From Termitomyces sp. T153 (Eukaryota > Basidiomycota > Agaricomycetes > Agaricales > Lyophyllaceae), in assembly GCA_018296165.2 (NCBI GenBank), contig JACKQL020000021.1, positions 558,001 to 622,000 of the forward strand: a DNA stretch of 64,000 nucleotides, given 5' to 3'. Under the pieces are notes generated by a model, which ran no database searches, was not told the origin of the DNA, and saw nothing but the letters and a program-made list of their open reading frames with translations. The position numbers and the translations under genes were made by a program. Below are positions 3,641 to 49,199 of this stretch, one piece after another; position 1 is the stretch's first letter; the number at the start of each line of letters is the position of its first letter.

Positions 3641-3740
3641 TCAAATTCTCACCATTGTTGGAAATGTGCATCCATGTTATGCACCATCATGATGAGTTAT
3701 CATGAGGGATATACTTTCCATCAGGGTTTGAATGAAGGTA
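3641..3740 (+). repeat. CpG-decayed copy of segment 13917-14020
   Basis: The segment aligns by eye with 13917-14020, just beyond the stop codon of the F-box/WD40 gene. Every obvious CG in the island copy (for example TTCGAA, CACCGTG, ATCGCGAGG, AACGAAGG) reads TG or CA here. It lies upstream of the Helitron Rep ORF, so it may be a captured host fragment or a shared unclassified repeat. Confidence 0.6.
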
Positions 3741-4715: not shown

Positions 4716-4747
4716 GGTTGTGGCACTACTGGCACCTTGTTTTGACA
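4716..4747. repeat. Copia LTR-edge motif, copy 1
   Basis: Thirty-two bases identical to 12395-12426, containing TGTGGCACTACTGGCACC and preceded by an A8G7 purine run. The second copy abuts the start of the Copia internal region, so this is probably the edge of a solo or truncated Copia LTR. The far end was not found. Confidence 0.5.
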
Positions 4748-6017
4748 GAAGGAATGTAAACAGGCTTTATTTTACTGTCATATACCACTTGTCATAGCCA
4801 GAACCAATGACAATCAAAGTGCTTTAGATGACCCATGTGTTCTGGTTGCTTGGAGACAGAGATAGTGGATTGATTATTGACATTAATGTGCTCCTATGCT
4901 GCCTAGTGCCATGCAGGAAACCTAAAAAGAGGATCTAACACTAGTCACTAGATAGGGTAGCTGGCAGTAAGAAGTTAATAGATGAGGGTGAGTCAGTAAC
5001 TGTCCCAGAGAACTAGAGTGAACAGGGTGTGTGTGGAGTGCAAAGTAGCAAGAGTTGCTATTGCTAGCCTGAGTCACTAGATGATAACAAAAAATCACTA
5101 ATGAGAGAAAGGGAAAACAAATGAGAACAAAAACATTGCTAAGGGGAGAGCAAACTAAGTGGTATGAGGGGAGTTGGAAAAGAAACAGGCAAGTGACAAT
5201 AAAGAGACTAAAACAGAGGATGAATGCAAACTAGTTGCTAGCCATAGTTGCTAGCATTGCTAAGTCAAAAATCATGCTAAGGGCACCACCACACAAAGTT
5301 AAAGTCAAAGTCAGCAAGACTTGTTGCTAAGTCATTGTCAAAAGAGAGTGAGAGAGAGTGAGAGATAGAGACAAAGTGAAATCTCAAGCTGGTAAGCTTA
5401 GAGAGAGAGAAGGGGGAACTGTACTCTGTTTGTTTGATGGTAGTTCAATGATGAGGGTCTATGTACAGGCAGTATTTATACTGTTTGTAGGTATAGTATG
5501 GGAAAAAAAAACAATAGTTGCCACTAGCAACAGCATCTGCCAAAGTGTTTATGATACATACAAGGTGTCAATCTGTAACTAAGTGAAAAAAATAAGCAAA
5601 GTCAATGTGATGCATAAAGGTGATCAATCACAAGAAAAGAGTGAGTCCAATGTCAATACCTGAAGTGTAAATGCCATTCAAGTATGTTTGTAAGCTCAAC
5701 AAGAAAAATGATAAGTAAGAAATCACATGACTGTCAATATATCCATTTTTGGTGAGAAAGCTGTGTTGTCACCAAGAAAGTCATTAGTGATTGTTGCTAA
5801 GAGAGGTCTTGGCCTTGTTGTTCTAGACCCAAAGTTCGGACTCCATGTGATATGGCTCATGATTGATAAGTCTTGTGGTTGCTAAAATCCCATACAAAGG
5901 CTACATCATTCCAGACCTTGGGGCTAGGCCTCACATGCTGAGTGTTGTGACTTGTGCCATATCAAAATAGTCAGCTGCTGTCCAGTCCAAAATGCCAAAA
6001 ATGGTGCTCAGCAACAA

Positions 6018-20600: not shown

Positions 20601-21079
20601 AGCAGAGGCTCAAGAGACATATTTATCAAATGTCAATGATGAAGCTGTAGCATTCATTGTTCACTGTTGCAGTGGCTGTGCACTTATATCATCAGACTTT
20701 TGGTGGTTCTCCAAAGTCTATGAATGATCTAGAACATTTGAGAAACATCATATGGCCTAAATCAGAGTTGCCAGGGCAGAGGCCATTTGACTGCACATAG
20801 AACCCTGTATGTAAGTGGGATATGCCTGATGTTCCACAACATTGATTACTGTTTAGTCATACTCCTTGACATACTTAAACCTACTTGGTCATTTAGTATT
20901 AGTCATAACATAGCCACCAAGGTAGTATATAAAGTGGTCTACAAGATAGAATATCCTCAGATCAAACAATAGCAGTGTTCACCAGGTCTATGCATTGAAC
21001 TGACTGTAGGCAACTCCAATGTCACCCCCTAGCTTAGCTCACTGTGTTTGCTGCTTGCTTGCCCCTTGCTTGACTCTTA
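20601..21079. other. CpG-poor sequence flanking a Tc1 insertion
   Basis: No gene. This is old repeat-type DNA between the end of the host island and the Tc1 end at 21080. It contains a GTAGTATATAAAG TATA-like string near 20922 and could be a decayed LTR, but I found no partner. Confidence 0.35.
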
Positions 21080-21702
21080 CAGTGGCTCAAAAAACTGTCC
21101 CAATGTTTTATACTTTTTGAAAGATGACATTGGCATGAAGGATTGGAAGTATTTAGAATTCTGGTTAAATCATGTAAAATACTATGGCATCATAGCTACA
21201 AACTGCATTTTAGTTCATGTAATTTTCAATCAAAACTGATGGAGTAATGGCCATTTGAAAATATCCACTCATTGTTACAGTTTTTTGAGCATCTCTGATT
21301 TTACAGGCTTGTCCTTATTTTAGTCAGAAATAAAGAGTAAGTTGCATGTGGGAATATCAACAGAGTCATGTGACCATGTTTGGTTATATTTGGGAGTGGC
21401 TCAAGATGGTTGAACCACATCTTGACCTTCAACCACCATCATGAAAGCTACTTCTCCTGCACAGTGCTCTACTGTTGCTTCTCTCCTTGCTCAAGGATAT
21501 TCTCTGCATCAGATTGAGGCCAAAACTGGTCTAGGGAAGTCTACTATTGGGAAGGTTGGTAGAGAGTTGGAGGTGGACAAGGAAAACCATCCTGGAGGCC
21601 ATCCAGCTAGCTTACTCTATGTGATAAACAGGCTATTGTTTGACAAATCTCAACTGGGAGACTGGATACAGCTGTTCAGGCCACCAATTTTATCAATAAC
21701 AT
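21080..21702 (+). mobile_element. Tc1/mariner-like element 1, left part
   Basis: The element begins CAGTGGCTCAAAAAACTG directly after a TA dinucleotide (21078-21079), as expected for Tc1/mariner. A matching copy starts after TA at 40224. The transposase N-terminus is encoded from 21441: MKATSPAQCSTVASLLAQGY, then a helix-turn-helix GLGKSTIGKVGREL. The left end carries an inverted pair, CAAAAAACTGTCCCAATG at 21088 and its decayed reverse complement at 21270-21287. Homology to copy 2 stops at 21702 and resumes at about 28835, so the element was split by later insertions. Confidence 0.75.
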
Positions 21703-21803
21703 TGATGTGAAATTGGTGAAATTGGCTTAGTTTTCAAACTCAGCTCAAAACTCCAACTCACAAAGGTATTTAGGACTTTGTTTCACATAGCTCACTCTAA
21801 AAG

Positions 21804-22956
21804 TGTCATGACCCGTTCCCCGAAACCCCGCACATCGTCCATCAACCCCCCGAACCCCCAAAGGGACCCCCAACGCTCCGCCGAACTTCCGCCCATGCCC
21901 CGCGCCTACTTCGGCTAACTCCGACGCCTCCCCGGCTAACTCCGACGGCCCCCTGGCCAACTTCGGTGCCTGCCCCACAGCCACTGACACTTACCCTGGG
22001 CCTCCCGAACCCCAAGAACCACCCCCACTGTTCCCGATCTTCGCCACCCCATCATCAACTAAACACCCTGACCTATTCCAGAGTATCACGACAACCTCGG
22101 GGCAACCCGCGTTCTCCAATGATCCCATCAACGTATCAGCGCGGCATGATCCTCGATCACAACCGACACCCACCCCCTCCGTCGAGCTCCACCAAGCCCT
22201 GCCGCCACAGCCGACGTACCCCGAAGTCCTCCGGTAGTCAGTATATAAGTCATCGAGTAGCTCTTCGTACCCTAGTCTTGATATTGCTTAACGTTACCTA
22301 TGGTCTGATTGTTTCCTTTTTGTGTTTCGTGTTTCGTGTCTCGTTTTCTTATCTCAGTCTCCTGGTCTTATCTCAGTCTCCCGGTCTCATCTCAGTCTCC
22401 CGGTCTTGTCTCGTCTCCATTTCGTTATCGTTCTCGTTATCGTTTCGTATCTCTATTCGAATCTACTCTTGTCCCATATCAACACCATCCCATTTTGTCT
22501 GACGCTGTCTTGGTGACTCCGTCCAATCATTGTACCCAAGTCTTCATCAACCTTAACGACCTCACAAACTCCGCGATTACAATTACGAACCCCGACACTC
22601 CTTTACCAGGTCTGAACCTCGCTCTTTGCTCGGTCCCGAACTCCATCAGCTCCAAATGATCTCCCATCAAAACCCGGCTCCGCTCCCACTGATCACACAG
22701 CCGCCTCATCCTTCGCCTCTGCAAATCCCCCGTATGGCCTTCTGCCTGAACCCCGCCAAGACCGTCTTGTTTCCTCACAATCCGACTTCTCCGGACCTCC
22801 CCGGATCTGTCTGGATCACATCCCCCCAACTACCCACACGAGCCACCATGGCCCGGAACGTCTTCGAGTGTTTGGTTACCAGTGCAAGGGGATCACGCCC
22901 GCCTAGTAAGGACTCGCCCAGTGCAGCTGAGCCCCCGAGGTCAGCGGAACCTGACA
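21804..22956 (+). repeat. Gypsy A1 5' LTR
   Basis: 1153 bp, TGTCATGACC at the start and GAACCTGACA at the end. It contains a TATATAAG box (22242-22249) and three tandem copies of a TCTCAGTCTCCYGGTCT-like unit (about 22340-22410). All ORFs inside it are LTR sequence, not genes. Confidence 0.92.
22242..22249 (+). promoter_or_regulatory. TATA box of the Gypsy A LTR
   Basis: TATATAAG within the 5' LTR, repeated identically in the 3' LTR near 27343. In decayed family A LTRs the same position keeps AGTATATAAA (for example about 45367 and 50360), so it is a conserved promoter element. Confidence 0.6.
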
Positions 22957-25400
22957 TAATATCAAGACTCTACCTTACCCCGTCCATGATGCCTGCATTA
23001 TCTCCACACACACAATCAAATAACTCCGATGTCTATGGTCTACCCGTGCCGGGGAACCCTTATGATTCATACAGCCCTGCCCAATTTGCCAAGGCACATT
23101 GAGTTGCAGATCCGACACCAAACGTCCCCTCCGCTCCGGTTACTTTCATACAACGGCTCCCCCCACGGACACCCTCCCCAACTCACACCCAACTCCCAAC
23201 CCCTTGTGCAAACCGTCAAATCATCTTCCACCCCACTCTTACACTCTCCGCCAACTCCGCTCTCTTGCGCAAAGTTGGCCCCGACATCACCCAAAGAATA
23301 ACATCCTAAAGCCTGGCGACCATCCGACCAAACAAGTAACAAGGTCTCCGGCACCGCGCCAGCCCTCCGACCAACAATAACGCCAACCCGCCGCGGAACA
23401 GTCACCCACTGCGCGAGGATCGCCAGCTACGAAGAGACCACTGAGAACGCGCTTCCCTGAAGCCCGCCTGTGGATTCACCAGCCCACCAGCAACCCCGCA
23501 GACCGATGAACGCAACTAATCACCAACAACATCACCAAGCCCTATTATCGACCCCCTCCAAGGAACTAAACCCTCCGACAACTAGCCTCGAAACCACCGA
23601 AATCAAGCTCGACCCAACAACCCCAACCACAGGACAAGAACCTCAGACCCAGGCTATGCTCCAACCCCATGACCTGCTTCCGGACCTCGATTGATCGGCC
23701 GTCACCTCTGCCCAACAAATGAAGGGGCCCCGACTCCCCCGACCCGACCCCAACAACCCCGGAACAAGACCAAAACATCCCCGAGCCTCTAGACGTTAAT
23801 AAGGAGAACCACGGCACCCCACTCCTGACAAGGGACAACTCCAGACCACGCCGCTATTTCACCACCCTCCCCCACACAATCCGGAGCCCCCGACAATGAG
23901 GACCCTGGACGCCAAAACCCCCCGCATGCCACCCCTGAGCTTAAACTCCACCACCAGACTACGCCACCTCCCACGAAGGAATCCCCAGCATAGGAGCCAC
24001 CCCGAACTAACTATAGGAAAAAGGACCCTATACGAAGTAGTTCCCTAAGTACTCTAAATTCGCTGACATGTTCATATAAGGGAGGGAGAAGCCCCACCAT
24101 CATCCAGAAAACGACGATGGGCCGTTCAAGCGACCCGACGACCCAAAGGGCACGCGCTCCGATATCCTCAAAGGACCTCCCCCACCCGGCTCGACGACCC
24201 AAACAACCCCGCGCCAGCCTAAAACTGTCCCACCCAGACCCCTCCAAACCCTTCAATACAGCTCCAGACCCTGGCGACACGACTCCAGGGCCTCCGCTCC
24301 AACTACAACATTTGACCAAGAGAACTCATGGCGCCAGTTCAACAATGATGCCCTGGTAGCCCCAACTCCGCGACAGAAATCACCACCCACTCCGAACCCC
24401 ACACCTACACCGGAATATGTCCGCCCGAACAGGGACCACATCACCGGAGCCTCCAGAAAAGTGGGCAGTGCCTCCCCCCACTGCCACCCCCACACTTGCA
24501 ACGATCTCCGGGCTGCTCCGGAACATGAATGAAGAGTAGCCTCGACCCTGCCGCATCTCCCGGGGAGCCCCACTCCAGTGCATCCCCGCGGCCGACCCCC
24601 CCGCCGCCCCAACAACCATGAACAACCAGCAGACCCCCACCAAGTGACCCTTGAGTTGACTCCGGGACCACCTACTTCTTCCCGATGAAGGAACCACCCA
24701 CCCCCGAACCTCTGAACTCGAGGAAGTATCAGAAATACGTAAGACCCCCTTTGTCCGCCTCGGGCTTACTTTTGGTCAGGAGAGCAATATCACATAAATG
24801 ATCCGGAACCCCAAATTTTGGCCCCGGACCCAAAGGAACTGGCTGGGACTGATCACCCCGCATCCTACCCCCTCGGTCATTGACACTCCGGAGCACACCA
24901 AAGCGCCACCCGAAGCATGCCCGCCCACAGACGCAACACTCCGGAACACAACCCCGACCCGGACCAACTATACCGCAAGGACAAACCTCGCCTCACCGAA
25001 CCCCGCTAATGAAAAAGGCCCCGCCGCCCTCGCCACCAGTGCCGGCGTAAGGGCCAGACCATGGGGAGACCCCCATTACCCCCCGCCAACCGCACTGCCA
25101 AGACAACTAAAGCCCCGAACCCGTTGGGCACCGTAAAAGATTCGAAGGCCCATCCTCCAATACCAACACGGCGCACGTCCCCTACACCCCCAGTCGGAAC
25201 TTCCAAGAATCGAACTCAATGACACCGCCCGAAATGCCGGGAACCCCCACCGGAGAACTCCCACCACCCCCACCGGACCTTGGGAGCCCTCCTGCGATGC
25301 CCCGCCCCATCCTGACAAACCCTGGGACTAGCCAGCACAGATGGCACTAGCGGGCGTAACCCCCGCCTCTGGACTCACTAGGGATTCAACTCCCTCTCAC
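22957..25400 (+). pseudogene. Gutted gag-pol region of Gypsy A1
   Basis: This is the sense-strand interior. Scattered matches to decayed element A2 remain. The stretch around 24030-24090 (AAGTAGTTCCCTAAGTACTC, then TTCGCTGACATGTTC) corresponds to the segment before RT at 39138-39190. The stretch 25290-25400 (GGCACTAGCGGGCGTAACCC) corresponds to the tail of A2 at about 42800-42900. RT, RNase H and integrase motifs are absent and there is no long sense frame. The loss is by deletion, not CpG decay, so it predates this insertion. Confidence 0.65.
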
Positions 25401-25562
25401 ACCCCTGCGTGTTTCGCTTACTTCGCCCTCATACAAAACTAAAATCTCACTTCACACGCCCAGGGACCAAGAAAGGACATGTTCGCGTACAAAAATCATA
25501 TATACAATAGGCGGGGAAGGCAGCAAGTCCGAGAGCGACAAGAAATGAGGCCCACACCCATC

Positions 25563-26693
25563 TCACTCCCTCCCCAGACCCCCCGGCAACCCAACCCCCA
25601 GGTCGACCTCCATCTGGGCCCACACCACCGCTAAGATCTCCGCCAACCCCAGCAATGCCTCCCCCGCGTTGGCCGCCACCTCCCACCACGACCCCGGGGC
25701 CACTGCATTGCGCCGCCGATGCCCCGCCAACAACCTCTCCAATCGCGCCATCCCCTGCTGCAACTCCGGAGGCCGGACTGCGGACCCCTGCGTCAACCCG
25801 TCCTGAATCGACGCAAACACTGCAGAGGCACCGTCCAAGAGGACCCGATGCTCCCGCACCCAGCCTAAACCCAGAAAATGAACTGTCAATAACAAACGGA
25901 GGAACAGGAGACAACTCACGAAGGATCCCCGTGCGACCTGAGGCGGCCTCGTTGGCCAGCCAATCCTCTCTCCGCCTCGCCACCTCCAGCTCCACCCACA
26001 ACGCATCCCCCTCCAGAACTTGTCCCCGCCCCTCCGCTTCCCCCGCGGGCTGCCCCTCCACCTGCGCCAGACGCTCCCGCAAACCCCGCACCTCTAGCGC
26101 TCGCTCCGTCCCCACGCGCACCAAAGTATTCCTCTCCCGCTCCATCACTTCCTTCTCCGTCTGCGCCACGTCACGATCCTCCCTCGCCCATCGGAGCTCA
26201 CCCTCCCGTACTGCCAACGACGTCGTCAAGGCCTCCACCTGCTTGCGAAGGAAGACCTCCGTGATCGAAGGAATCGGCGCGGGGGGACTCGACGACCGTT
26301 CTGAGGGGACGCCCGGGACAGGAGAAAAGAGGGAGGACTCCGGAGGCCCCGCCGACAACTCGCGCCCATGCGGCCTCTTGCTGGGTCCCGCCCCCGAGGG
26401 CGGGGAAGCTCGACGCTTTCCCCAAACCATCGCCGAGGATGCCCCCTTCCCCTTTGGCAACGCGGGACAAAACTTGGTCCGTTTCGGAACCCCCGGAAAA
26501 TCCACTACCACTACCACGGACGACTCTAAGGGAGCCCCGTCAATCATCCCGAAAAGAAAGGTCGACAACACTCACGACTCCGGTCCCTGATGCTACCCCG
26601 GCGCCGACGCTCAAACTCCTCACCCCCACTGTTGTACACCACCACCTCGTCCAAATCGGCGGGAGAGACTACTGGAACACTGGGGGAAGACAT
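25563..26693 (-). CDS. Intact antisense spliced ORF of Gypsy A1, 341 aa, coiled-coil protein
   Basis: Three exons: 26576-26693, 25920-26525 and 25563-25864. Introns are 26526-26575 (GTGAGT to TTAG) and 25865-25919 (GTGAGT to TTTAG). They sum to 1026 nt in frame. The start MSSPSVPVVSPADLDEVVVY lies about 210 bp inside the 3' LTR, so the LTR or its edge may drive antisense transcription. Residues 1-39 are acidic then Arg-rich (RRRRGSIRDRS). Residues 40-125 are basic and Pro/Ser-rich with likely nuclear-localisation stretches (GKRRA, PSKRP). A coiled coil spans about 128-205 (SITEVFLRKQVEALTTSLAV and EKEVMERERNTLV), and the C-terminus is helical (WVREHRVLLDGASAVFASI). Decayed A2 and A3 keep the same order, with an added Cys cluster in A2. 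The gene runs tail-to-tail with pol. Function unknown. Confidence 0.75.
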
Positions 26694-26891
26694 GACAAAA
26701 TTTGGGAAACCCCGGGGCACGCCCAAAGCTTTTAATTGATTGAGGAGGACCCTGACAAAACGGCGGCCGCGCTTCGACTTCGTCTCCCATGCCGCTATCA
26801 CTCACTGCAGATTGATCAATATTGCTCGGCTTCGACTCCCATGCCCCGCCGATCCCCGCCCTGCCCCCGCGTCTCGAAGGGTCTCGACGCT

Positions 26892-26904
26892 GAAAGGGGG
26901 GTGA
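26892..26904 (+). other. Polypurine tract of Gypsy A1
   Basis: GAAAGGGGGGTGA immediately before the 3' LTR: the plus-strand primer site. The same form occurs at 44909-44920 (A2), and in reverse at 46634-46646 (A3). Confidence 0.75.
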
Positions 26905-28057
26905 TGTCACGACCTGTTCCCCGAAACCCCGCACATCGTTCATCAACCCCCCGAACCCCCAAAGGGACCCCCAACGCTCCGCCGAACTTCCGCCCATGCC
27001 CCGCGCCTACTTCGGCTAACTCCGATGCCTCCCCGGCTAACTCCGACGGCCCCCTGGCCAACTTCGGTGCCTGCCCCACAGCCACTGACACTTACCCTGG
27101 GCCTCCCGAACCCCAAGAACCACCCCCACTGTTCCCGATCTTCGCCACCCCATCATCAACTAAACACCCTGACCTATTCCAGAGTATCACGACAACCTCG
27201 GGGCAACCCGCGTTCTCCAATGATCCCATCAACGTATCAGTGCGGCATGATCCTCGATCACAACTGACACCCGCCCCCTCCGTCGAGCTCCACCAAGCCC
27301 TGCCGCCACAGCCGACGTACCCCGAAGTCCTCCGGTAGTCAGTATATAAGTCATCGAGTAGCTCTTCGTACCCTAGTCTTGATATTGCTTAACGTTACCT
27401 ATGGTCTGATTGTTTCCTTTTTGTGTTTCGTGTTTCGTGTCTCGTTTTCTTATCTCAGTCTCCTGGTCTTATCTCAGTCTCCCGGTCTCATCTCAGTCTC
27501 CCGGTCTTGTCTTGTCTCCATTTCGTTATCGTTCTCGTTATCGTTTCGTATCTCTATTCGAATCTACTCTTGTCCCATATCAACACCATCCCATTTTGTC
27601 TGACGCTGTCTTGGTGACTCCGTCCAATCATTGTACCCAAGTCTTCATCAACCTTAACGACCTCACAAACTCCGCGATTACAATTACGAACCCCGACACT
27701 CCTTTACCAGGTCTGAACCTCGCTCTTTGCTCGGTCCCGAACTCCATCAGCTCCAAATGATCTCCCATCAAAACCCGGCTCCGCTCCCACTGATCACACA
27801 GCCGCCTCATCCTTCGCCTCTGCAAATCCCCCGTATGGCCTTCTGCCTGAACCCCGCCAAGACCGTCTTGTTTCCTCACAATCCGACTTCTCCGGACCTC
27901 CCCGGATCTGTCTGGATCACATCCCCCCAACTACCCACACGAGCCACCATGGCCCGGAACGTCTTCGAGTGTTTGGTTACCAGTGCAAGGGGATCACGCC
28001 CACCTAGTAAGGACTCGCCCAGTGCAGCTGAGCCCCCGAGGTCAGCGGAACCTGACA
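26905..28057 (+). repeat. Gypsy A1 3' LTR
   Basis: 1153 bp, the same length as the 5' LTR and over 99% identical by eye. It ends GAACCTGACA and is followed by the AAAAG duplication. Confidence 0.92.
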
Positions 28058-28062
28058 AAAAG

Positions 28063-28832: not shown

Positions 28833-28992
28833 ATCATTTCCAATCCTTTCTCTCCTCAGACTGTCTGGAATGTGCTGAAGGAGGAGGTATATTGGTCTGC
28901 CTGCTACAAAGAGGAAAGTTCCTATGCTTAAAGCTAGACATTGGCAACTATGACTTAAATGGGCTCAAGAGTATCAGAACTGGACTTTGGAG
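28833..28992 (+). pseudogene. Tc1/mariner-like element 1, right fragment
   Basis: Resumes the transposase reading of copy 2 with IISNP..SPQTVWNVLKEE, then TKRKVPMLKARHxQL and LKWAQEYQNWT. It stops at about 28992, where minus-strand Gypsy B sequence begins. The catalytic DDE domain and right terminal repeat are missing. Confidence 0.7.
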
Positions 28993-31899: not shown

Positions 31900-34800
31900 T
31901 CTGACAGTATGTGATGGCTTCCAGCCCATCTGCCAACTCCCTGCACCTTGATGTAGAGATAGAGACCATGGACACTCAGCAAACCTGTGGAGTCACTGCT
32001 CTTTTGGATAGCAGAGCAACAGGACTGTTTTTGGACTCAGAGTTTGTCAAGCACCATGGCCTGACCATGCAGCCCCTCCCCAAGCCCATTCTGGTCTACA
32101 ACATCAACAGAACACCCAATGGAGCAGGCATCATCAGCTCAATAGGCAACCTTGTCCTCCATTATTGGAATCATGTGGAGTGTGCTGTTTTTGCTGTTAC
32201 CAGCTTGGGTAGGCAGGATATGATCCTTGGTTTCACATGGCTTCACAAGCACAACTCCAAAGTAGATTGGACCAAGAGGGAAGTAAGCATGAGCAGGTGA
32301 CTTTGGAAGTGCTCTGCCTGCACTGCCAAGGACAGGGATAAACACTGGGCTTGACTTCAAGAGCACACAGCCATCCATGCATATTGTGCAGGGCCTCTCC
32401 CCTTTGCCAATCTGGACCTCCTGGATTCTCTGCCTCTGGTGTTCCCTTGTAGAGAGGCCCTCTATAGGGATGACCAGAGTAGTGGCAGAGCCCTGGAGGA
32501 GGAGCATGGAGAGGAGTTTGGTGGCATACACAAGCCAGAGCTCCTGGACAAAGTGATAGAGGTGGGGGACCAGATCTATACTACCACCATACACTTGCCA
32601 TTCTGCATTGCAGAAATCCAGACTAGCCAGACCACATCCCAGCAGCTGGCCCAGGTGGTTGCTGCTAACACCACACTCTGAGAGTTCTGAGATGTTGTAT
32701 CCCCCTACCTCCATATATTTGAGGATGTTTTCTCCAAAGCCTCATTTGACTTGCTCCTGGAGCACAAGTGGTGGGGCCACACCATTGAACTGCTGCCTGG
32801 TTCCACACTCTCCAGCTGTAAGGTCTACCCACTAGCACCCAGGGAGCAGGATGAGCTCAATGCCTTCTTGCAAGAGAACCTAGACTCTGATTGCATACAC
32901 CCTTCCAAGTTTCTAATGGCTTCTCCTGTCTTCTTCATCAAGAAGAAGGATGGCTTGCTCCAACTGGTCTAGGATTATTGGGTTCTCAATGCCATGATGG
33001 TGAAGAAATGCTACCCCCTCCCCTTCATCTCCAAGCTCATTAACAACTTCCAGGGTGCATGATACTTCACTAAACTGGACATTTGGTGGGGCTACAACCA
33101 CATGCATATCCCAAGGAAGGACACAAATGGAAGGCTGCCTTCTAGACCAACTGGGGGTTGTTCAAACCTCTTATTATGTTCTTTGGACTCACCAATAGCC
33201 CAGCCACCTTCCAGATGATGATGAACAACATCTTCTGGGACCTCATTGTGGAGGGCATAGTGTGTGCATACCTCAACAACATTCTCATCTACACCAAAAT
33301 GCTGGAAGAGCACTATTGGATCACTTGCCTCATCTTGGAACATCTCTGCCAGCACCAGCTCTACCTCAAACTGGAGAAGTGTGAGTTTGAGCAGACTCAG
33401 ATTGAATATATGGGCTTGATCATCTTGTAGGGAGCCATGGAGATGGACCTGGTAAAGGTAGCAGGTGTGGCAAAGTGGCTGGAGCCTGAGAACAAGAAGG
33501 AGGTGCAGGCATTCCTTGGCTTTGCAAACTTCTACTGGAGATTCATCCAGGACTTCTTGTATCATGCCCATCCACTATTTCACCTCACTGGAAAGGATGT
33601 TGCATGAAGTTGGGGGCCTCTGGAGCAGATGGCTTTTGATGCCCTCAAGTGTGCTGTGACCTTGGGACCTGTCCTCCTCTTTCTAAACAATGATTCCCCC
33701 TTCCAAGTAGAAGCTGACAGCTCTGGCTTTGCCACTGGGGCCATTCTTTTGCAGCATTCCCTAGAGGATGGGAAGTGGCATCCAGTGGCCTTCTACTCCA
33801 AGAGCCTAAATGTGATAGAGTGGAACTATGAGATCCATGACAAGGAGATGCTGGCCATCATCCAGTCATTTAAGGAGTGGTGGCACTTTCTAGAACATGT
33901 GCATGGCACAAGTTTGAAGTCTGGACAGATCATAAGAACCTTAAATACTTCTAGACAGCTAAGAAGCTCAACTGCTGACAGGCTCAGTGGTCCCTTTACC
34001 TCACCAACTTTGACTTCTTGTTGCATCACAAACCCAGCCAGAGTATAGGAAAACCAGATGCCCTGTCCTGGACAGCAGACCATGGCACAGGGGGGGGGGA
34101 GGACAATAGCAACATTGTGCTCCTCCACTCCAAACTATTCACAATCCAAGCCATGGAAGGTCTAGCTGTTGAGGGAGCAGAGGTAGACATCCCCTGGGAC
34201 ATCCAGCAGAGTAATTGGGATGGTTAGCAGGAGGAACTCATTGTGCAAGCAGCTTGGGCACTGAAGTTGAGGCATACCACTGGCACTAAATTGGTCCATG
34301 CAGACAAATGGGTGCTCCTGAATGAGATCTTGATCTTCAGGAATTGTATCTATGTGCCCAACATTCTGGAGGTTTGCTGGAGAATTGTAGAGCAACACCA
34401 CAACTCCCACATTATGGGGCACCCTAGACAATGGGAAAAGGAAGCTAGTATTGCAGAACTACTGGTGGCCTTAGATGTCCTGGTATATTGGGTCCTACAC
34501 TAGCACATGCAATTTCTGTCTCCAGACCAAGCCCTAACACTGCCTTCTCTCTGGACAGCTACACCTGCTGCCTGTGTCCACAGAACAATAGAGCATTGCC
34601 TCTGTGGACTTCATTGTAGAGCTCCCCAATGCCCATGGTTATAATGTGATCATGGTAGTGATGGACCTGTATGGCAAGCGAGCACACTTCATTCCAACTC
34701 ACACCACTTGCTCTGCTATGAGCACCACAAACCTGTACTGAAGGAACATCTGAAAGCTCCATAGCCTCTCTGATGCCTACATATCTGACTAAGGGCCACA

Positions 34801-35985
34801 ATTCATAGTGGACTTCACCAGGAAACTCTACTGACTACTCAGTGTGAAGCTTCACACCCCTACTGCCTATCACTCACAGTCCAATGGCCAGACCAAACAT
34901 GTAAACCAGAAGTTGGAGCAGTACCTCTGTCTCTTTTGCAACAAGTGCTAGGATGACTAGGATGAACTCCTCTTCAATGCTGAGTTCCAATACAACAACC
35001 ACATTCATGCTTCCACCCAATTTTTTGGATTCTTTCTTGACACCAGACAACACTTGTGCATGAGCTTTGAACTCTGGGCTCAACTCAGAGAATGAAGCAC
35101 TGAATAAATTTGTGGACTGGATAAAGAAGTCATAGGAGGAGGCCTGAGCAGTGCTGGTAAAGGCAAAGGATGACATAGCATGATACTATAACTGTAGAAG
35201 GACCCTGGGGCACAAATACCAGCCTGGAGATCAAGTCTATCTGGATGCCTCCAACATTACAACTACCCAGCCTTCAAAAAAGCTGTTGCACCACTAGTTG
35301 AGACCTTTCACAGTGGAATGGCAGGTAGGGCCCCTAGCCTACTGACTCTGGCTCTCTGCAGGGATGTGCCAGCTTCATTCAGTGTTCAATGTGGTCCAAC
35401 TGACTCTGGCCTCAAAGGACCCTATTCTGGAGCAATGTCTGCCACCCCTGCCACCTCTAATGGTGGTTGACAATAATGAGAAGTACTATCAAGGAACTGC
35501 CAATGCACATGTTTGGTCATGTGATTGGTCACATGATCAGTTGCCATGTGCATTCTGTGCAGAAGCCACATGGCAGGGTCACATGACTTGAGTAGATTTT
35601 CTGAACCCTACCATTGGAAACCCTCAGGCTTGTTCTCTTTGGATCTCCCTCTGCCAGGTGTGCAGTCCTACTTGTAGACATTGTACTATGCTGAATAGAC
35701 TTTGGATCTCCCTCTGCCAGTTGTGTGATTGAGCCACAGCCTCCAGAGGTTGCTCTTACAAGTACAAGGTTGAGGAAATCCTGGATAGTTGTTTATTCCA
35801 GCAATGACTACAATACAAGGTGAAGTGGAAGGGTTACAGGATCAAGGATATCTCCGGGGAACTGCAGGAAAATGTACATGCCCCAGAGCTCATCAAGAAA
35901 TTCCACAGGAGACACCTAGATGCTTCATGCACCATACAAGGAATCTACTCTATTTTGCCAGCAGACTAAGCAATCAGGACTTTTT
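31900..35985 (+). pseudogene. pol: Gypsy C pol: protease, RT, RNase H, integrase, chromodomain
   Basis: The protease is at 31911-32300 (ALLDSRATGLFLDSEFVKHH; DSG is DSR). RT is at about 32700-33430, with YFTKLDIW and the catalytic loop YLNNILIY in place of YLDD. RNase H is at 33629-33900 (VEADSSGFATGAILLQ, EIHDKEMLAI). The integrase runs from 34243 (VEQHHNSHIMGHP), with the core at 34590-34910 (VDFIVELPNAHG; PTAYHSQSNGQT). The chromodomain-like end is near 35766-35960 (YKVEEILDS). Many stops and shifts occur, and the solo LTR at 35487-35760 interrupts the linker before the chromodomain. Confidence 0.8.
35482..35765 (+). mobile_element. Solo LTR (family E) inside Gypsy C, TSD AGTAC
   Basis: A 274-bp insert (35487-35760) from TATCAAGGAACTGCC to GCTCTTACA, flanked by AGTAC on both sides (35482-35486, 35761-35765). 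Its end resembles the Gypsy C LTR end (TTGCCCTTACA), so it belongs to a related family. A partial copy is at about 52790-52935. Confidence 0.75.
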
Positions 35986-38912: not shown

Positions 38913-41900
38913 GTGGTGCCACAACTCCAGACCCAGCCACTACTGCTTCAACATCCACCCTCATCAATCCCAAAGCCCTCAACATCAAAATCATTGGCAT
39001 CATGCCTTTTGCATGCATCCTACAAGATGATACCCCTGCCTTCCAATTACAAATCATGCCAGCCCTACTAGAAGAGTACCTCCATGCAGAAACCACCCTG
39101 CTGGAATAAAAAACAGAGGAACAAATCCTACACAAAGTAGTTCCCCTGGAATATCATGAATTTGCTGATGTATTCTCTGAAGGGAGTGCAAAAGAACTTC
39201 TCCTGCACTGCTCCAACAATCACAAAATTAATCTCAAAGAAGGCACCTTGCCCCCATTTAGCAAGATTTACAACATGTCATGTCTGAGATCAAACTCCAG
39301 GCCCTGAAGGATTACTTCAACAAAATGCTTTGCAAAGGTTTCATATACCCATCGATCTCTGCTGCCAGCACTCCAGTCCTGTTTGCCAAGAAGAAGGATG
39401 GGTCTCTCTGACTCTGTATTGATTACTGGGGACTCAACAAAGTCACCAAAAAGAACCAGTATCCCCTCCCCCTGATTGGAGACCTTGTTGACTGCCTCTG
39501 CAGTGCCAGATCTACACAAAAATAGACCTCTGCTTGGGCTACAACAATATCCAGATTGCTCCAGGGCATGAATGGAAGAACTCTTTGAGTATCTAGTGAT
39601 GGCCTTCAGAATGACTCACTCCCCTGCTGCCTTCCAGTACTTCATGAATGATATCTTCCACAACATGAACAATGTCTTCATTATTGTGTACCTGGACAAC
39701 ATTCTGATCTACTCAAATTCTTTGGAGGAACATCCAGAGCATGTCCACCACATCCTAAAACAACTCCAAGAGTATCACCTTCATGCCAAACCCAAGAAAT
39801 GCTCCTTCCATATGACAGAGGTCAAATACCTTGGAGTCGGGAGTACACATGGACTCAGCCAAGGTCAAAGCCATCCTCAGTTAAGAAGGTACAGTCCTTT
39901 TTGGGGTTTGCTAACTTTTATTGCCAATTCATTGACAACTACTCTGGAATCACCAAACCTCTCAAATGACTCATGTGGAAGGACACACCCTGAGACTGGG
40001 ACAGCAAGTGCCAAAGTGTATTCACCCTTCTCAAGAAAGCCTTCACCTTGACCCTGGTCCTCTGTCATTTTGACCCATCCCTACCAATAGTCCTTGAGTG
40101 CAATGCCTCCAACTAAGCCATTGCCAGAATACTCTCCCAGTTGGACTCTGGAGGCAAGGATCTCTGCCCCATTGCCTTCTACACCTGCTCAATGATCCCT
40201 GTGGAGCTCAACTACAATATCTACAGTGGGTCAAAAAACTGTCCCAATGTTTTATACTTTTTGAAAGATGACATTGGCATGAAGGATTGGAAGTATCTAA
40301 AATTTTAGTTAAATCATGTGAAATACTATGGCATCGCAGCTACAAATTGGATTTAAGCGTATGTAATATAAATCAAAACTGATGGAGTAATGGCCATTTT
40401 GAAATATTCACTCATTGGGACAGTTTTTTGAGCATCTTCAACTTTGCAGATTTATCCCTATTTCAGTGAGAAATAAAGAGTCAGTTGCATGTGGGAATAT
40501 CAACAGAGTCATGTGACCATGTTCGGGTCTATTTTGGAGTGGTTCAAGTTGGTTGAACTACATCTTGACTGTCAACCACCATCATGAAAGCTACTTCTCC
40601 TGCACAATGCTCTACTGTTGCTTCTCTCCTTGCTCAAGAGTATTCTCTGTGTCAGAATGAGGCTAAAACTGGTCTAGGGAAGTCTACTATTGGGAGGATC
40701 AGTAGAGAGTTGGAGGTGGACAAGGAAAACCATTCTGGAGGCCATCCAGATAAGCTTACTCCTTATGATAAATAGGCTATTGTTTGACAAATCTCAACTG
40801 GGAGACTTGATACAGCTGTTCAGGCCACCAATGTTATCAACAACATCATTTCCAATCCTGTCTCTCCTCAGACTGTCTGGAATGTGCTGAAGGAGGAGGG
40901 GTATTGGTCTGCTACAAAAAGGAAAGTTCCTATGCTCAAAGCTAGACATAGGCAACTATGACTTAAATGGGCTCAAGAGCATCAAAACTGGACTGTGGAG
41001 AACTGGAAAAGAGTGTTTCACTGTTAATCTTTGTCTCATCAAATCCTTGCCATTATCAAAGCCTTCCACCAGTGGAGGGCCTACCTTGAGTGATTTCCAC
41101 ACCACACCCAAGTCTACTCTGACCATAACAACCTGCAATAGTTTACAACCACAAAACAGCTCAGCTGCCACCAAGCTTGTTGGTCCAAAACCCTCTTGGA
41201 GTATGACTTCACTATCCACTATTGCTCCAGATGACTTGGCATGATGCCCAATGCCATCACCTGGAGGCCCAACATGTATCCAAAAAGGTTGTTTGAGGCT
41301 GAGCAGAATGTGTTCAACCATCAAGTGGTAATCCCCCCTGAGCATTTGCATGCCATGCTGATTATGAAGGAAGAAGGGATCCTCCACCAAATCAGAAATG
41401 CACCTCCAGACTCCTTTTTTGCCCAGCACAATCCCTGCAACAACTCCACCAACAAGTCAACCATCAACAAACCTTTCATTCTGTCTCTGGACATCCACCT
41501 CCTACTCTGGAGTGGACAAATCTATGCCCCAGAACACAAGCCCTTCTGCCTCAACATACTTCAGCAACACCATGATCACAAACTCCAAGGTCACTTAGGA
41601 ATCCATAAGACTCTCCAACTCATGTCCAAGACTTACTTTTGGCCAGGAATGAAGAAGGACATCACATGATATGTGAGGGCCTGCAAACTGTGCCTCCAGG
41701 CCAAAGTACCCCACTACTGCCCTTATGGCCTGCTGAAACCCCTCTCCATTGGCTAGCACTCTTGGTCCTCTATATTAATGGACTACATTGTCAAACTCCC
41801 TGACTCTGAAGGCTTCAATGCAATCCTTGTGGTTGTCTGCTGCCTCACCAAGCAAGCCCTTTTAATCCCCTGCCACACCACTGACAATGCTCCAGAGTTT

Positions 41901-42840
41901 GCTAAACTATTCCTTGAACACATCTTCTCCAAGCACAGAGTTCTGGACAACATCATCTCTGACTGTAGCCCATTATTTGTCTCCCACCTTTGGCAATTGC
42001 TATGTCAGACACTCAAAATCAAAACCAACCTCTCCACTGCCTATCATCTGGAGACTAATGGACAGATGTAAACCAAACATTGGAGCAGTATCTCCACCTT
42101 TACATTGACTATTTACAAAACAACTGGCATGCAGAACTCCTCCTCACCAAGTTCATTTACAACAACATGCCTCACCCCACCACCAGAGTGTCCCCTTTCT
42201 ATGCCAACAAGGGCTACAACTCTTGGCTCACCCTATCCCTCAAGGATATCCTCTCCCATGTCACCCAAAAAGTTGCCAAAGACCTCCAATCACTTCACCA
42301 GTTCCTCTGGGATGAAATCAACACTGCCAATCAAGCCTACTCCAAACATGCCAATGCCCAATGCAATCCCACCCCTAACTGGCCCTCCAGCACTCTGGTC
42401 TAACTCAATCAACATAATCTTAAGACCTAGAGGCCCTCCATCAAGCTTGATCACAAGCAACTTGGCCTCTTCAAGATTCTCTAGAAGGTCTTGACACATG
42501 CCTACAAACTCAACCTAAACCTGGGCCTGAAGGGCCTTCACCCTGTCTTCCATGTCTGCCTTCTTGAAAAACATGCCCCAGACCCTTTCCCTAGATAGTG
42601 CCCTAGTTGACTGCTCCCTATTGAAGTTGAAGACAAATACCACTACAAAGTCAAACAAATCCTCAACTCCCACCTTGTTCATGGTTGACCCCACTACTTG
42701 GTCCGCTGGAAGGGTTATGGACCTGAAGACAACACTTGAAAGCCCCACAAAAACCTCTCTAGAGCCTCTGCCAAACTCTAGGATTTTTATCAATGGTACC
42801 CCACCAAGCTCCAGGACCCCTAGGACTAGTCAATACAGAT
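38913..42840 (+). pseudogene. pol: Gypsy A2 pol: RT, RNase H, integrase, chromodomain
   Basis: Decayed plus-strand pol. Pre-RT is at 39138-39200 (VVPLEYHEFADVFSEGSAKE). RT follows at 39260-39840: KGFIYPSISAASTPVLFAKK, then [20 protein letters not shown] and the catalytic loop YLDNILIYS. RNase H is split by Tc1 at 40224 and resumes with YSDHNNLQ at 41116. The integrase zinc domain is at 41560-41700 (HHDHKLQGHLGIHKT, CKLCLQAK), and the core at 41778-42075 (MDYIVKLPD, NIISDCSPLF, YHLETNGQ). The chromodomain is at about 42640-42780 (YKVKQILNS, HYLVRWKGYGPEDN). Gag and protease of this copy are missing. Frames are broken by many stops. Confidence 0.85.
40224..41010 (+). mobile_element. Tc1/mariner-like element 2, truncated
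   Basis: Starts CAGTGGGTCAAAAAACTG after TA (40222-40223), inside RNase H of Gypsy A2. The transposase N-terminus is at 40584 (MKATSPAQCSTVASLLAQEY), with an HTH GLGKSTIGRISREL. It reads on, with a frame change near 40770, to SPQTVWNVLKEEGYWSATKR, KAQEHQNWTVENWKRV, and stops at about 41010. There is no DDE domain or right repeat. An exact 18-bp inverted pair lies at 40232-40249 and 40413-40430. Confidence 0.8.
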
Positions 42841-42899: not shown

Positions 42900-44890
42900 A
42901 CTCCCTGCATGTTCTTACTTTTTTATCTCCTCATATAATCTAAAAACTCAACTGCCCAGGTCAGAAGTCCAAAAAGATTGTATAAACAAGTTTACTGGTA
43001 CAAGATGTTACAAAGGATGAAGGCAACACCAGCACAGAAACTGCAAGACACTAGGCCCAGACATCTCTCACTCCCCCTCTCCCTTGGGAACTCCCCTCCC
43101 TGCCTCTCCAGCCCCCAAATTGACCTCCATTAGTGCCCTGACCACAGTCAGGACCTTCACAAGCTCTGGCAATGCCTCCTTTGTGTTCACTGCTATCTCC
43201 CACCATGCTTCATTGCCAGTGCTCTACTAACAGCTGTTCCATCCTGGCCATTCCCTGCTCCACCTCTAGGGGATGGCCCTCAACCACCTGTGCCAGACCA
43301 TCCTGAATGGAGGCAAACAAGGCAGAGGCCCCATCTAGCAAGAGCTGGTGCTTCTAGACCCAGCCTAACCAAGACTATATGAACGTGATCAAGGACAAAA
43401 GAACAAAGACTCATGCAGGACCCCCACCCTCCCCATTGCAGTCTCACTGAACAGCCACTCCTCACACCTCCATGCAGCCTCCACTTCCATTTGAAGTGCC
43501 CCACCCCCCAAAGCATTTCCCTGCTAACCCTCCCTCTCTAGCTGTACCAGCCACTCCCACAGCCCCTACAGCTCCAAGGCCCACTCTATGGCTATCTGCA
43601 TGGCAGCCTCCTGACCTTATCAAGCCACATCCTTCTCCTGCTATGCTGTGTCCCTCTCCCTGTGTGCCCCATCTCAATCCTCTCCAACTCTCCAGAGCTC
43701 CTTCTCTTGCATCATCAACATTCTTGTCAACCCTTCCACCTGCTAATGAAGAAATGCTTCTGTGATTGAGGGCACTGGCTCAGGGGTGCCCACAGAACAT
43801 CTCATTGATGCTCTGGAGCTAGGAGAGTACATGTGGACCCTTAGAAGGGCCAATGCCTCACCCCAGGGCCTCTTGCTAGGCCTGGCTTCTAGAGGTAGGG
43901 AGGCTCTTCATTTCTCCTTGTCCACCCTCACTGGTGCAGTGCCTCCTCCTTGCAACTCCCCTGCAGTAGGCCTACCTTTCCTGCTGACCCTCCCCCATGC
44001 TCCAGTGCCCTGGCCTTCCTTCTCTCACTCAACTGCCCCCTCATCTAATCCAACTCCCACCCCTGCTCTACAGCAATGCAGGCCACACACCACCCCAACA
44101 ACACAGAGCACTTCTTGTGCCTTGAGTGGCACAGAAGGCAGATGGACAAGTCCCAGTAGGACTCCACAACTGGCCTGTCAAATTTGCATGGCTTTCTCTG
44201 CCAGGCACAGAGGGCACACTAGAGGTGCTTGATTAGTGGGGACACAAGCAAAACAGATCGGAACCTCACTGGAGCTTCACTCTGACACTATTATAGGGTT
44301 GGGGGACCCCATGCCCATGCTAGCACCTCTGCAAAGACCTCCAGCATTACCTTTGCCTAGGGAACCTTCTAGGACTCTGGATTCATGACCACCATTCCCA
44401 GCCCCAGACTGGGCCTTGAGGAACAAACTGGGAGCACTGGAGATGAACAATGGGAAGACCCTGCTCCTCTCCTGGAGCCCCTGGAGGAACCTTCCACAGC
44501 TGCAAATGTTTTTGACAGAGATTAGAAGATACTCCACACAAACAATGAACACTGATGTTGACAGTGCCTAGCCTAGGCCTTACTCTGCTCCCCACAATAA
44601 TCAGATTCCTGGCAACACTTGTTATTCTCCTCCCACATGTTCTCACTGCTGTCATTGGAGGGGAGTGGCATTGAGAATGCTGCTAATGAAGAACCAGAGG
44701 AAGACATTGGAAAAGTCAGGAAGCAATGGGGTTCATCCTAGCCCTCTTTTAATTTCTTGGAGAGCTTTCTAATGGACAATGATCCTGCTTTGACTTTATT
44801 CCCCATGCTGCTGCTGCTGCTGTGGTTTGATCAATATTGCTTGTGCTTCAATTCCCATGACTCTGCCAATCCCTGACCCATGCTCTGCAC
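42900..44890 (-). pseudogene. Antisense accessory ORF of Gypsy A2, with Zn2Cys6-like cluster
   Basis: Decayed counterpart of the A1 antisense gene, in the same place between pol and the 3' LTR. Reading minus from about 44880 there is an N-terminal region, then an in-frame array CX2CX6CX15CX2CX6C (44218 down to 44108: CALCAWQRKPC, then CLLCHSRHKKC). Basic PSKRPWGE follows at about 43880, then the coiled-coil start VPSITEAFLHQQVEGLTRML at about 43700-43770, and the C-terminal helix LLLDGASALFASIQDG at about 43295-43350. The last-intron donor reads C|ATGAGT (43413-43414) where A1 has C|GTGAGT. Several stops. The cysteine spacing is that of fungal Zn2Cys6 DNA-binding clusters; the role is inferred. 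Confidence 0.65.
44108..44218 (-). other. Zn2Cys6-like cysteine array in antisense ORF of Gypsy A2
   Basis: Thirty-seven codons with cysteines at 1, 4, 11, 27, 30 and 37 and no stop inside. The C-terminal half is basic (HSRHKK), as in Zn2Cys6 transcription factors. In A3 a related CVSCCSRHEK segment lies at about 47435-47470. Confidence 0.6.
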
Positions 44891-46639: not shown

Positions 46640-48240
46640 CCCCTTCAACATTGAGACTCTTGAGATGTGGAGTGCAGGTCAGAGATTGGTGGGGCATGGG
46701 AATTGAAGCTAAGTAAAATTGATCAAACTGCAGTGAGCAGCAGTGGCATGGGGAACAAAGTTGAAGCATGACTACCAATCATCAGGAGGTTCTCCTCAAG
46801 TCATTAAATGGATCAGACATACTCCAGGGTTCCCAAACTCTTTGCCATGTCTTCCTCCACTCTATTCTCAGCATTGTCAGCTATCCTCAGCATTGTCAGC
46901 TATCCTCAGCATTGTCAGCATCATCTGCATTGGCATCAACATCTCCTGCTCCCTCTTCCTCAGGGGAGTCTGATTTCCATCATGGCCACAGGCAGGTAGA
47001 GGCTATGTACTGTAGCCATGAGTGCAGGTCTGTTTTTTCTGTGTTCCAGAGTTGCTAATTGAGTTCAACAGAATTGTCTGCAGCTGTGGCTGGCCTATTG
47101 GGGGTCCCATCTCAAGGCAGAGTTCTAGCAGGATTGGTTTTTGTGTTGGCAGAATGGTTCTTGAGACCCAATTTTGGCCTGAAGAAGATCCAGGTCATTT
47201 CCAAGGCACTGCAGGTTGCTCAGGTGGAGGTGACTCCAGAGAAGTTTGTGGAGGCAGTGGAGCAGGTGCAGGGTCTTCTGACTCTGGAATGGTGCCAGGC
47301 AGAAGCTCCAGTGAGTCCCTTATATCTGTTGTGCCAGGTTCTGAGGTAACTTGATGTTATAGTGCACTCTTTGTTCTCGCTGCAGGGATCACTGCAGTTT
47401 TGAGGAGCCAATGCAGGGCTCCCATTGAAACACTTTGGTGTGTGTCTCATGTTGTTCAAGGCATGAGAAAGTGCCCAATCTCATTGAGTTAGCAAGCAGC
47501 CTGCATGTCAGAGGAGCAGGGATGGGACATGGCATGGGTGGCCAAGCAGTTACTCAAGGGGTGCAGGGGAAAAGTGTTGAGTTGGAGGTCTAGAATAGAG
47601 GGCAGAGTAAGTGCAAAGTAGCCCACAATGAAGGTGGGACCCCTACAAGGTGGGCAGAGAGAGGGGGTACCAGCAGCGCATGACAAGGAAAAACAAAGGG
47701 CATCTCCCTTGCTGGAAGTAGGGCCCAGCAAGTAGCTAAAAGGAGAGGAGTCAATGGTGGGCCCTCCAGAGCCACATGTGTACTCTCCTACATTGGGGGT
47801 TTGGTGAGGGGGTCTGGCAGGGGCTCTAGTCCTTCTCCAGTACTCTCTAAGACATTTTAGCAGTGGCGAGCAAAGGTGTTGTCCTGACTGCTGGCATTGC
47901 ATCAGGACAAGATCCAAAGGATTGAGGAAGACTACAACATGGTTCAGTGGGAGCGTAACAAGGTGTGGAGAGACTGAGATGTAGTGCAGTGGGAGTTAGG
48001 AGTGGCTATGCACACAATCATAAAGGGATTGTTGGAAGTGCAAGGGCTGCAAGAGTGGCTGGGATAGTTGGAGGCACAGGTGGAGCAGAGGGCAGAGGTG
48101 CAGCAAGGGGCCATAGAGGCAGGAGGGGCTAGGGTGGAGGCAGGGAGGCAACATAAGGAGTGGCTAGCCAACAAGGCAGCCTTGGGACAGAGAGGAGTTA
48201 TGCATAAGTCCCTTTGTTTCTTGTTCTTCTGATCCTACTG
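46640..48240 (+). pseudogene. Antisense accessory ORF of Gypsy A3
   Basis: A3 is on minus, so its antisense gene reads plus. Following the reversed PPT there is an N-terminal region (about 46770-47000) with a 19-bp repeat (CTCAGCATTGTCAGCTATC, two full copies and a partial third, 46868-46925). Next come an intron-like GTAACTTG to GCTGCAG (about 47345-47386), a degraded Cys cluster (CVSCCSRHEK), and a helical segment (47900-48190: REWERNKVWRD-like, EVQGLQEWL). The last intron's donor is ATAAGT (48204-48205), after C, where A1 has GTGAGT. Stops throughout. Confidence 0.55.
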
Positions 48241-49199
48241 ATGTTAGTTGGTTAGACTAGGTCCAACAACACCAAGTTCTCTTGGATGGAGCATTGGCAG
48301 CACATGTTAGTGCAGGATGGATTAGTGTGGATGCCTGGGGAGCTTCCTCTAGAGTTGGAGCAGGGTTTTAGGCAGATGGGAGCAAAGGAATGCAGTGGAC
48401 CTCAGAGCATGCTGGGAGGTAGTGACTGATGTAGGGGAGCCATTACCTGGGCAGCCAGAGGTCCTCACCATAGTGGTTGCTCAAATGGAGGTTGATTTAG
48501 TCAGGAGTGTGGTGTGGAGGATCCTGGAGGAGGAGGGAGAGTGAGGGAGTGGTCAGACCTGGGTTTCTTGCTATCTTGTGCTTCCATAGTTCCACCTGTA
48601 TGATTTTGCACCTCTTTTAGCATTGTCCATATCAAGTTTGTTTGCAGTTCTAGTGAGTGTGTAAAGTTTCAGATTGTAAGAGGGAACAAGTAAGTGGAAA
48701 CATGCAGGGAGTTATTCAGGGGAGTTGAATCCCTAATAAAACTAGAGGTGGGAGTTAAACCCACTAATGCCATCTGTGTCAACTAGTTCTGGGGTTGCTA
48801 GGGCTTGGCAGAGCATGGCAGGCATAGATTCCAGAATTTGACAGGGGTGCTGAGGGTTTCTCTAGAGCTCCTAAAATGCCTTGAGGGGGTCAATGGGCAG
48901 GGTGTTGATCTGAGCGTGCTTCTCAGAGAGTTGGACTGAGGTTGTGGGTGGGTGTTCTCAGGTCCAGAATTATGCTAAGCATTGGTGGTTGGGCTTAAGG
49001 GTGGATTTCTGGGCCTTAAGTACACTTTGGTGGTGGCTTTGGTTTCTGTTCCAACATGGCTGGTGGAGGGGGCAGAGATTTTCTGGCAACTTTGATTTTG
49101 CTCTGATGCAGCTAGTAGAGGGGGTGGAAGTCCCTTTTGATGGCAGTAGAGAGGACAGAGTAGAGGTTGTCCTTGGAAGCAAGATAAGTTGGAGATGGG
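48241..49199 (-). pseudogene. Rest of antisense C-terminus and pol remnants of Gypsy A3
   Basis: 48250-48550 corresponds to the C-terminal antisense exon (LLDGALAAHVSAGW-like on plus). 48700-48830 is the reverse of the A1 segment 25320-25400 (GGGAGTTAAACCCACTAATG). The remainder to 49200 resembles the gutted pol of A1, with no domain left. Confidence 0.45.

Follow-up and report, generated by a model that had tools for sequence, protein, structure and literature searches.

An antisense gene with two predicted introns is under purifying selection in a gag-pol-less LTR retrotransposon family of Termitomyces

What does an antisense gene do for a retrotransposon in which neither gag nor pol can be detected? 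This question is raised by element A1, located in a 64,000-nucleotide stretch of DNA from Termitomyces sp. T153 (the window). A1 is a complete insertion with the hallmarks of Ty3/Gypsy LTR elements, namely LTRs with TG..CA ends, a polypurine tract, and an AAAAG target site duplication (Table 1). The position of the polypurine tract identifies the plus strand as the sense strand of A1. The two LTRs differ by 9 mismatches in 1153 bp, every one of which is a transition. No match to reverse transcriptase (RT) or integrase was detected in the sense interior (best E 0.07), and zero gag matches were obtained in A1 with composition correction on; weak proline-rich "gag" matches, down to E 1e-6, appeared only with the correction off. 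The preliminary description had reported a sense interior without usable gag or pol, in agreement with these searches. Since RT and integrase are absent from A1 and present in its relative at locus L071, A1 is a non-autonomous relative of Ty3/Gypsy elements, without its own RT, RNase H, and integrase.

We scanned the A1 interior in 19 copies for a further conserved gene, using 16 overlapping scan windows in six frames. Such a gene was rejected: p was at or below 0.05 in 6 of the 96 window-frames (lowest p 0.007), approximately the level of chance, and three of these six, at 24157-24606, give a weak hint of coding. Rfam and tRNA searches gave no matches within the 64-kb window. The noncoding segment 24708-24968 of A1 showed 70-87% identity in related loci, and in L062 and L064 (86-87%) the identity exceeded that of the adjoining exons. 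A structured RNA in this segment was rejected (z 0.76, with shuffles doing as well); the segment may have a function in packaging or some other function in cis.

Table 1. Coordinates of element A1, its antisense gene, and related features (window positions except for L071, which is numbered on its own locus)
Feature	Position	Strand	Remarks
Target site duplication AAAAG, left copy	21799..21803	.	flanks A1
5' LTR of A1	21804..22956	+	1153 bp
A1 interior, gag-pol-less, without robust coding frame	22957..25562	+	six-frame scan, 19 copies
Antisense exon 3	25563..25864	-	helical C-terminal module, LLDGASAVFASIQDG
Predicted intron 2	25865..25919	-	55 nt, GTGAGT..TTAG
Antisense exon 2	25920..26525	-	basic region and predicted coiled coil; helix from model of homologue P0005
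Predicted intron 1	26526..26575	-	50 nt, GTGAGT..TTAG
Antisense exon 1	26576..26693	-	start codon; copy alignment, codon tests
Conserved block, start codon to 3' LTR	26694..26904	-	holds AATATTGATCAA at 26812-26823 and TATA-like AATTAAAA at 26730-26737
Polypurine-tract-like AAAGGGGGG of A1	26893..26901	+	
3' LTR of A1	26905..28057	+	1153 bp
Target site duplication AAAAG, right copy	28058..28062	.	flanks A1
A2, decayed RT	39412..40185	+	70-88% to L071 RT, four pieces
A2, decayed integrase	41325..42685	+	72% to L071 integrase
A2, decayed antisense gene, just behind integrase	43071..44878	-	core match 43913-43098, E 2e-29; longer queries extend
A3, decayed antisense gene (element sense minus)	46885..48541	+	core match 47594-48499, E 8e-19; longer queries extend
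L071, RT	2514-3344		
L071, integrase	3675-5039		
L071, antisense gene	7102-5415	-	
L071, LTR match	from 7318		

The spliced antisense frame (26693-25563, minus strand) comprises 341 codons plus a stop, and the exon coordinates and splice junctions of the preliminary description, with two introns, proved correct as given. Long chance frames are common here on both strands; the sense frame at 25511-26590, for example, has 359 codons. The mere openness of a frame is therefore weak evidence, and we relied on the comparison of copies instead. Copies were sought in the same genome as the window (72.4 Mb, 307 contigs) with the antisense gene as query; elements without the gene fall outside the sample. 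We analyzed 40 copies, the window copy and 39 others at 93-97% identity, which were the best 40 of 576 candidates and as a sample lean to close copies. The ATG and the AG at both acceptors were kept in all 40, and GT was found in 36/40 copies at donor 1 and likewise in 36/40 at donor 2. As for stops in other copies, 22/40 gave a straight reading of 341-343 aa, and the remaining 18 did not read through. The open frame was combined with all canonical splice sites in 17 copies. In the variant tests, gaps were ignored and bases inserted with respect to the window copy were left out, so that 26/40 copies look stop-free there versus the 22 that are truly open. Across the 39 copies, 5 gap events were counted in 1026 exon bases versus 50, many of them shared, in the 200 bases adjoining exon 3; these counts exclude cuts at alignment ends, which would add 1 event in the exons and 5 in the exon-3 flank.

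Among the 541 variable sites at 25363-26893 in the 40 copies, 312 were CpG transitions, and all 8 donor-site losses were GT to AT changes at CpG. This CpG-dominated pattern of variation suggests methylation- or RIP-like decay of the copies.

Raw dN/dS in the antisense frame was 0.26, 0.44, and 0.28 for exons 1-3, the lowest of all frames in each exon. The sense frame with the same third positions gave 0.37, 0.48, and 0.38, and the remaining frames gave 0.70-1.43. However, raw values fell to 0.30 in one frame of the exon-3 flank. This, together with the abundance of CpG transitions, indicates that raw dN/dS is misleading here; noncoding DNA also yields values that are too low. We therefore took as the main measure N/S values matched by base change and CpG context. 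Rather than lying near 1, the context-matched N/S of the spliced antisense frame was 0.60 of the neutral expectation (0/2000 shuffles as low), compared with about 1 in noncoding controls, and the values for exons 1, 2, and 3 were 0.60, 0.60, and 0.65. No low N/S was found in any frame of the two 200-bp flanks (lowest p 0.126). The deficit persisted with trinucleotide matching (0.66) and after CpG variants were removed (0.45). The mirrored sense frame gave 0.57-0.77 when context-matched, 0.74 when trinucleotide-matched, and 0.57 without CpG variants, and in each discriminating test its constraint was weaker than that of the antisense frame; it looks constrained because it has third positions in common with the antisense frame. 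With CpG left out, variants at codon positions 1, 2, and 3 numbered 41, 28, and 85, and the low variability of position 2 fits the antisense frame and not its mirror. The copies fall into two subfamilies of 22 and 18 members, and all seven near-fixed coding differences between them were synonymous (2.0 expected, p 0.0003); the same seven are also synonymous in the mirrored sense frame. Single-copy variants (N/S 0.63) showed the same deficit as shared variants (0.67), and selection before insertion and decay after it are therefore not separated by these values.

We also compared exon 3 of A1 with 24 distant loci. This comparison used 27 of 31 loci (3 of type I and 24 others, several with stops) and leaves out L041, L052, L054, and L071, where the alignment was gapped, short, or missing; the 24 distant loci are mostly of type II, the placement of L050, L057, L063, and L068 being hard. 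Raw dN/dS was 0.26, versus 0.45 for the mirror and 0.76-1.40 for the other frames, and differences at codon positions 1, 2, and 3 numbered 473, 409, and 698. For variants present in at least 3 loci, the context-matched N/S was 0.55 (0/2000) and that of the mirror 0.67; without CpG the values were 0.46 and 0.58, respectively. In the control noncoding segments 24708-24968 and 25179-25562, compared in 22 and 23 of the same loci, raw values were 0.44-0.88 but context-matched values were 0.88-1.22 (lowest p 0.25). Since raw values are low in the flank and in noncoding DNA too, it is only with context matching that the gene can be told from the controls.

These comparisons concern elements that themselves resemble A1. 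Segment 24708-24968 was common to 26 of 30 more distant loci; in one of these the match covers just 58 bases and in another 101. Loci L072-L077, drawn from both subfamilies, aligned to the gag-pol-less interior of A1, with about 140 bases of that interior missing from L076 and L077. RT or integrase was found in none of the 30 related loci within 1.5 kb on each side; the gag frame present in L043 is located on the far side of an LTR and is part of the L071 element. Given the shared gag-pol-less interior, the absence of RT and integrase matches, and the lack of a robust interior frame, the elements compared in these constraint measurements had no detectable gag-pol themselves. These results show that the A1 family has a single detectable gene, the antisense one, and that its codons are under purifying selection.

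Related antisense genes were of three types, with products of 341-359 aa (type I, that of A1), about 500 aa (type II), and about 514 aa (type III), and in all three the gene sits in the same place before the 3' LTR. A Cys-rich stretch, C-x2-C-x5-C ... C-x2-C-x4-H-x2-C, is present in most of the type II and III members seen and absent from type I. Because the residues flanking the missing part align between type I and its relatives, type I looks like an in-frame loss of this stretch, in a comparison not polarised by a tree. The type III gene of L071 sits behind RT (PF00078, E 5e-33) and integrase (PF17921, PF00665), in the domain order PF00078, PF17919, PF17921, PF00665. The frames of L071 itself contain interruptions, and the two LTRs of this element share 86% identity across the part that matched. 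Its integrase frame matches SH3_Tf2-1; no chromodomain model matched, and the frame ends shortly after what may be the beginning of a chromodomain. A2 and A3, previously described as decayed relatives, are real relatives (E 2e-29 and E 8e-19), and A2 retains the order of L071 in decayed form, with RT and integrase followed by the antisense gene. That A1 carries an antisense protein gene of an LTR family, kept in a gag-pol-less derivative, is thus supported by the context-matched N/S, the intact copies, and the gene order of L071. Annotated proteins of Termitomyces T112, J132, and Mn162 include 341-aa ones that align without gaps through both predicted junctions, for example P0005 (84% identical). 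Among the matches listed (120 of 200, 85 of 85, and 120 of 145), the homologues were Termitomyces proteins, numerous per genome, and none came from outside Termitomyces. Termitomyces is an agaricomycete, in keeping with the Agaricomycete comparison envisaged in the preliminary description.

The predicted introns and the sequence upstream of the start codon are also conserved. Intron 1 occurs as two natural variants, GTGAGT/TTAG and GTAAGT/GTAG (22 and 18 copies by acceptor), with four donors decayed to AT, and its position is the same in L071. The position of intron 2 was the same in all 21 sequences, A1 included, that had both flanking motifs, of 34 searched; the acceptor was AG in 21, and the donor was GT in 16 and AT in 5, with a search pattern that allowed only G or A as the first base of the donor. 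The 211-bp block between the start codon and the 3' LTR aligned across all types (19 sequences, not every match included) and contains a near-invariant AATATTGATCA as well as AATTAAAA about 40 bp before the ATG. Intron positions and block persist in relatives that are only 38-62% identical in protein, and we infer that this block is the antisense promoter.

In a Pfam scan of the antisense proteins, no domain reached its cut-off. Six Cys-rich proteins gave 8.6-12.0 bits for PF00172 (Zn(2)-Cys(6)) against a cut-off of 21, and the A1-type proteins scanned gave no match to this model. Pfam bZIP models and PF04195 (TRP28) did not match the antisense proteins, and solved-structure relatives were absent from one search and reached a best E of 0.36 in another. 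Two structure models were poor overall (mean pLDDT 50 and 44). The model of P0005 contains one long helix at residues 127-196, with pLDDT 81-89 over residues 131-180; its N-terminal 120 residues and its helical C-terminal part are of low confidence. The basic stretch GKRRASPxxGxGPSKR is near-invariant across types. The plain reading of these features would be a dimeric nuclear factor.

We hold with moderate confidence that the spliced antisense frame is the element's own gene under purifying selection and that its protein is likely a nuclear coiled-coil factor regulating mainly the copy that encodes it. Antisense transcription would start from the conserved block upstream of the ATG, and the predicted introns would be spliced in vivo. 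The protein would enter the nucleus by means of its basic stretch and would dimerise. It may then act in cis, tuning LTR transcription or the chromatin state of the encoding copy. In elements that borrow gag and pol, help given in trans to all copies would hardly be rewarded, so by this reasoning the encoding copy probably benefits.

The alternative that survives best, although we regard it as unlikely, is that the protein serves relatives with gag and pol in trans, for instance in nuclear entry of the integration complex, and that the gag-pol-less copies are refreshed by recombination. The same gene stands behind integrase in L071 and A2, and accessory roles for plant antisense genes are proposed in passages of a review (PMC7264820). 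However, the noncoding interior of A1 is found in 26 of the 30 related loci and the proteins of A1-related loci share only about 33-44% identity with the L071-type protein, which together give no sign of recent refreshment from the L071 type. We give a low probability to an elaboration of the cis-regulatory reading, in which a gag-pol-less LTR radiation lives by one antisense, intron-bearing cis regulator. Here, repression would come from the full-length antisense protein of the gag-pol-bearing family. The Cys-less A1 type would have lost the Cys-rich stretch in frame, retained the coiled coil and the C-terminal module, and become a competitor that, by dimerising, releases its own copies from this repression.

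It is improbable that the antisense RNA is what matters, pairing with the sense transcript or feeding small-RNA silencing, with the open frame incidental. The promoter-like block is conserved about as much as the exons, and passages of PMC7264820 discuss double-stranded RNA roles for such loci. Yet constraint tracks codons, with the frame switching at each intron, and the seven differences between the subfamilies are all synonymous, patterns that a role of the RNA alone would not produce; such a role could nonetheless coexist with that of the protein. Capture of a host gene by the element appears doubtful, although an ancient capture remains conceivable. The introns are of the spliceosomal type and, being on the antisense strand, would survive reverse transcription of sense RNA, as would presumably hold for any antisense gene in a sense-transcribed genome; the introns predicted here fit this rule. 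Against capture, homologues among the matches listed are confined to Termitomyces with numerous members per genome, and the gene occupies one place before the 3' LTR in three types. That the sense frame 25511-26590 is the real gene, with the antisense pattern as its mirror, is very improbable. In exon 2, where third positions are common to both, its values come close to those of the antisense frame (raw 0.48 versus 0.44; context-matched 0.64 versus 0.60), but the same contiguous frame gave 1.28 in its exon 3 part, has a stop in 21/40 copies, and conflicts with antisense codon position 2 being the least variable, both with CpG out and between types; on these grounds it was rejected. A chance open frame in GC-rich decayed DNA has a negligible probability, common as long chance frames are here, in view of the copy intactness, the context-matched N/S, the uniformly synonymous subfamily differences, and the conserved position of intron 2.

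Antisense genes in LTR elements are a known kind, represented by Grande and Retand in plants and Boty in fungi, and according to passages of PMC7264820 their functions are unknown. Boty of Botrytis cinerea, a fungal LTR element, carries an extra gene in antisense orientation, located between pol and the 3' LTR (PMC7264820, in part), named brtn in passages of PMC8365987. Boty and A1 are thus both fungal LTR elements with an antisense gene, compared here by description and not by the brtn sequence; a difference is that the A1 gene belongs to a large gag-pol-less family in which no other gene can be detected. The maize element Grande carries gene23, described in the same review passages as an antisense gene of the 3' internal region that has an upstream promoter of its own and encodes a nuclear protein; these passages do not speak of introns. 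Grande is a plant element, and the position and upstream promoter of gene23 resemble, again by description, those of the A1 gene, whose promoter is inferred. In plant Retand elements, passages of PMC11963269 describe antisense TRP28 ORFs as a constant feature of the region between pol and the 3' LTR, report antisense coding regions in all cases, and note that some elements are non-autonomous; retention of such a gene in a non-autonomous element is therefore not new in itself. TRP28 corresponds to Pfam PF04195, whereas the A1-family antisense proteins have no PF04195 match; the main text of PMC11963269 does not contain the word "intron", and its passages hold no codon-level selection test. HBZ of HTLV-1 is a spliced antisense product read from the 3' end, a nuclear protein that lowers the 5' LTR activity of its own virus (PMC10186651, in part). 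HBZ is driven from the 3' LTR, whereas the promoter-like block of A1 lies outside the LTR, and HBZ is a bZIP protein, whereas A1-family proteins have no bZIP match, so the likeness is only one of working. Fungal Gypsy elements with an additional ORF of unknown function, its strand not given, appear in passages of PMC2864245. A description of this particular antisense gene was not found in the open-licence literature. New here are the two predicted introns, the existence of protein forms that either have or lack a Cys-rich stretch, and the codon-level selection in a family in which no second gene can be detected. In an autonomous element an antisense gene could serve any step of the cycle; where it is the sole detectable gene and its codons are still selected, the question narrows to what the encoding copy gains. 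As a small system with a single gene, the A1 family also provides natural protein forms in which the Cys-rich stretch is present or absent.

Several further observations concern the surroundings of these elements. Part of a type II-like antisense gene lies at L071:8283-9212, beyond the 3' LTR match of L071, and elements with different antisense gene types are therefore tandem or nested there. Within 32973-35474 of the window, another decayed Gypsy-type RT (33119-33799) and integrase (34442-35474) show mostly 38-42% identity to L071 and belong to another lineage. The stretch 62597-63039 is 54-75% identical to part of the L071 gag frame, with no L071-matching RT or integrase beside it within the window. 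Both flanks of A1 (21078-21702 and 28901-28992) match closely spaced sequence between the RT and integrase of A2 (40222-40846 and 40909-41000), and A1, with some further sequence after it, thus seems to have been inserted into a different copy of that A2 stretch.
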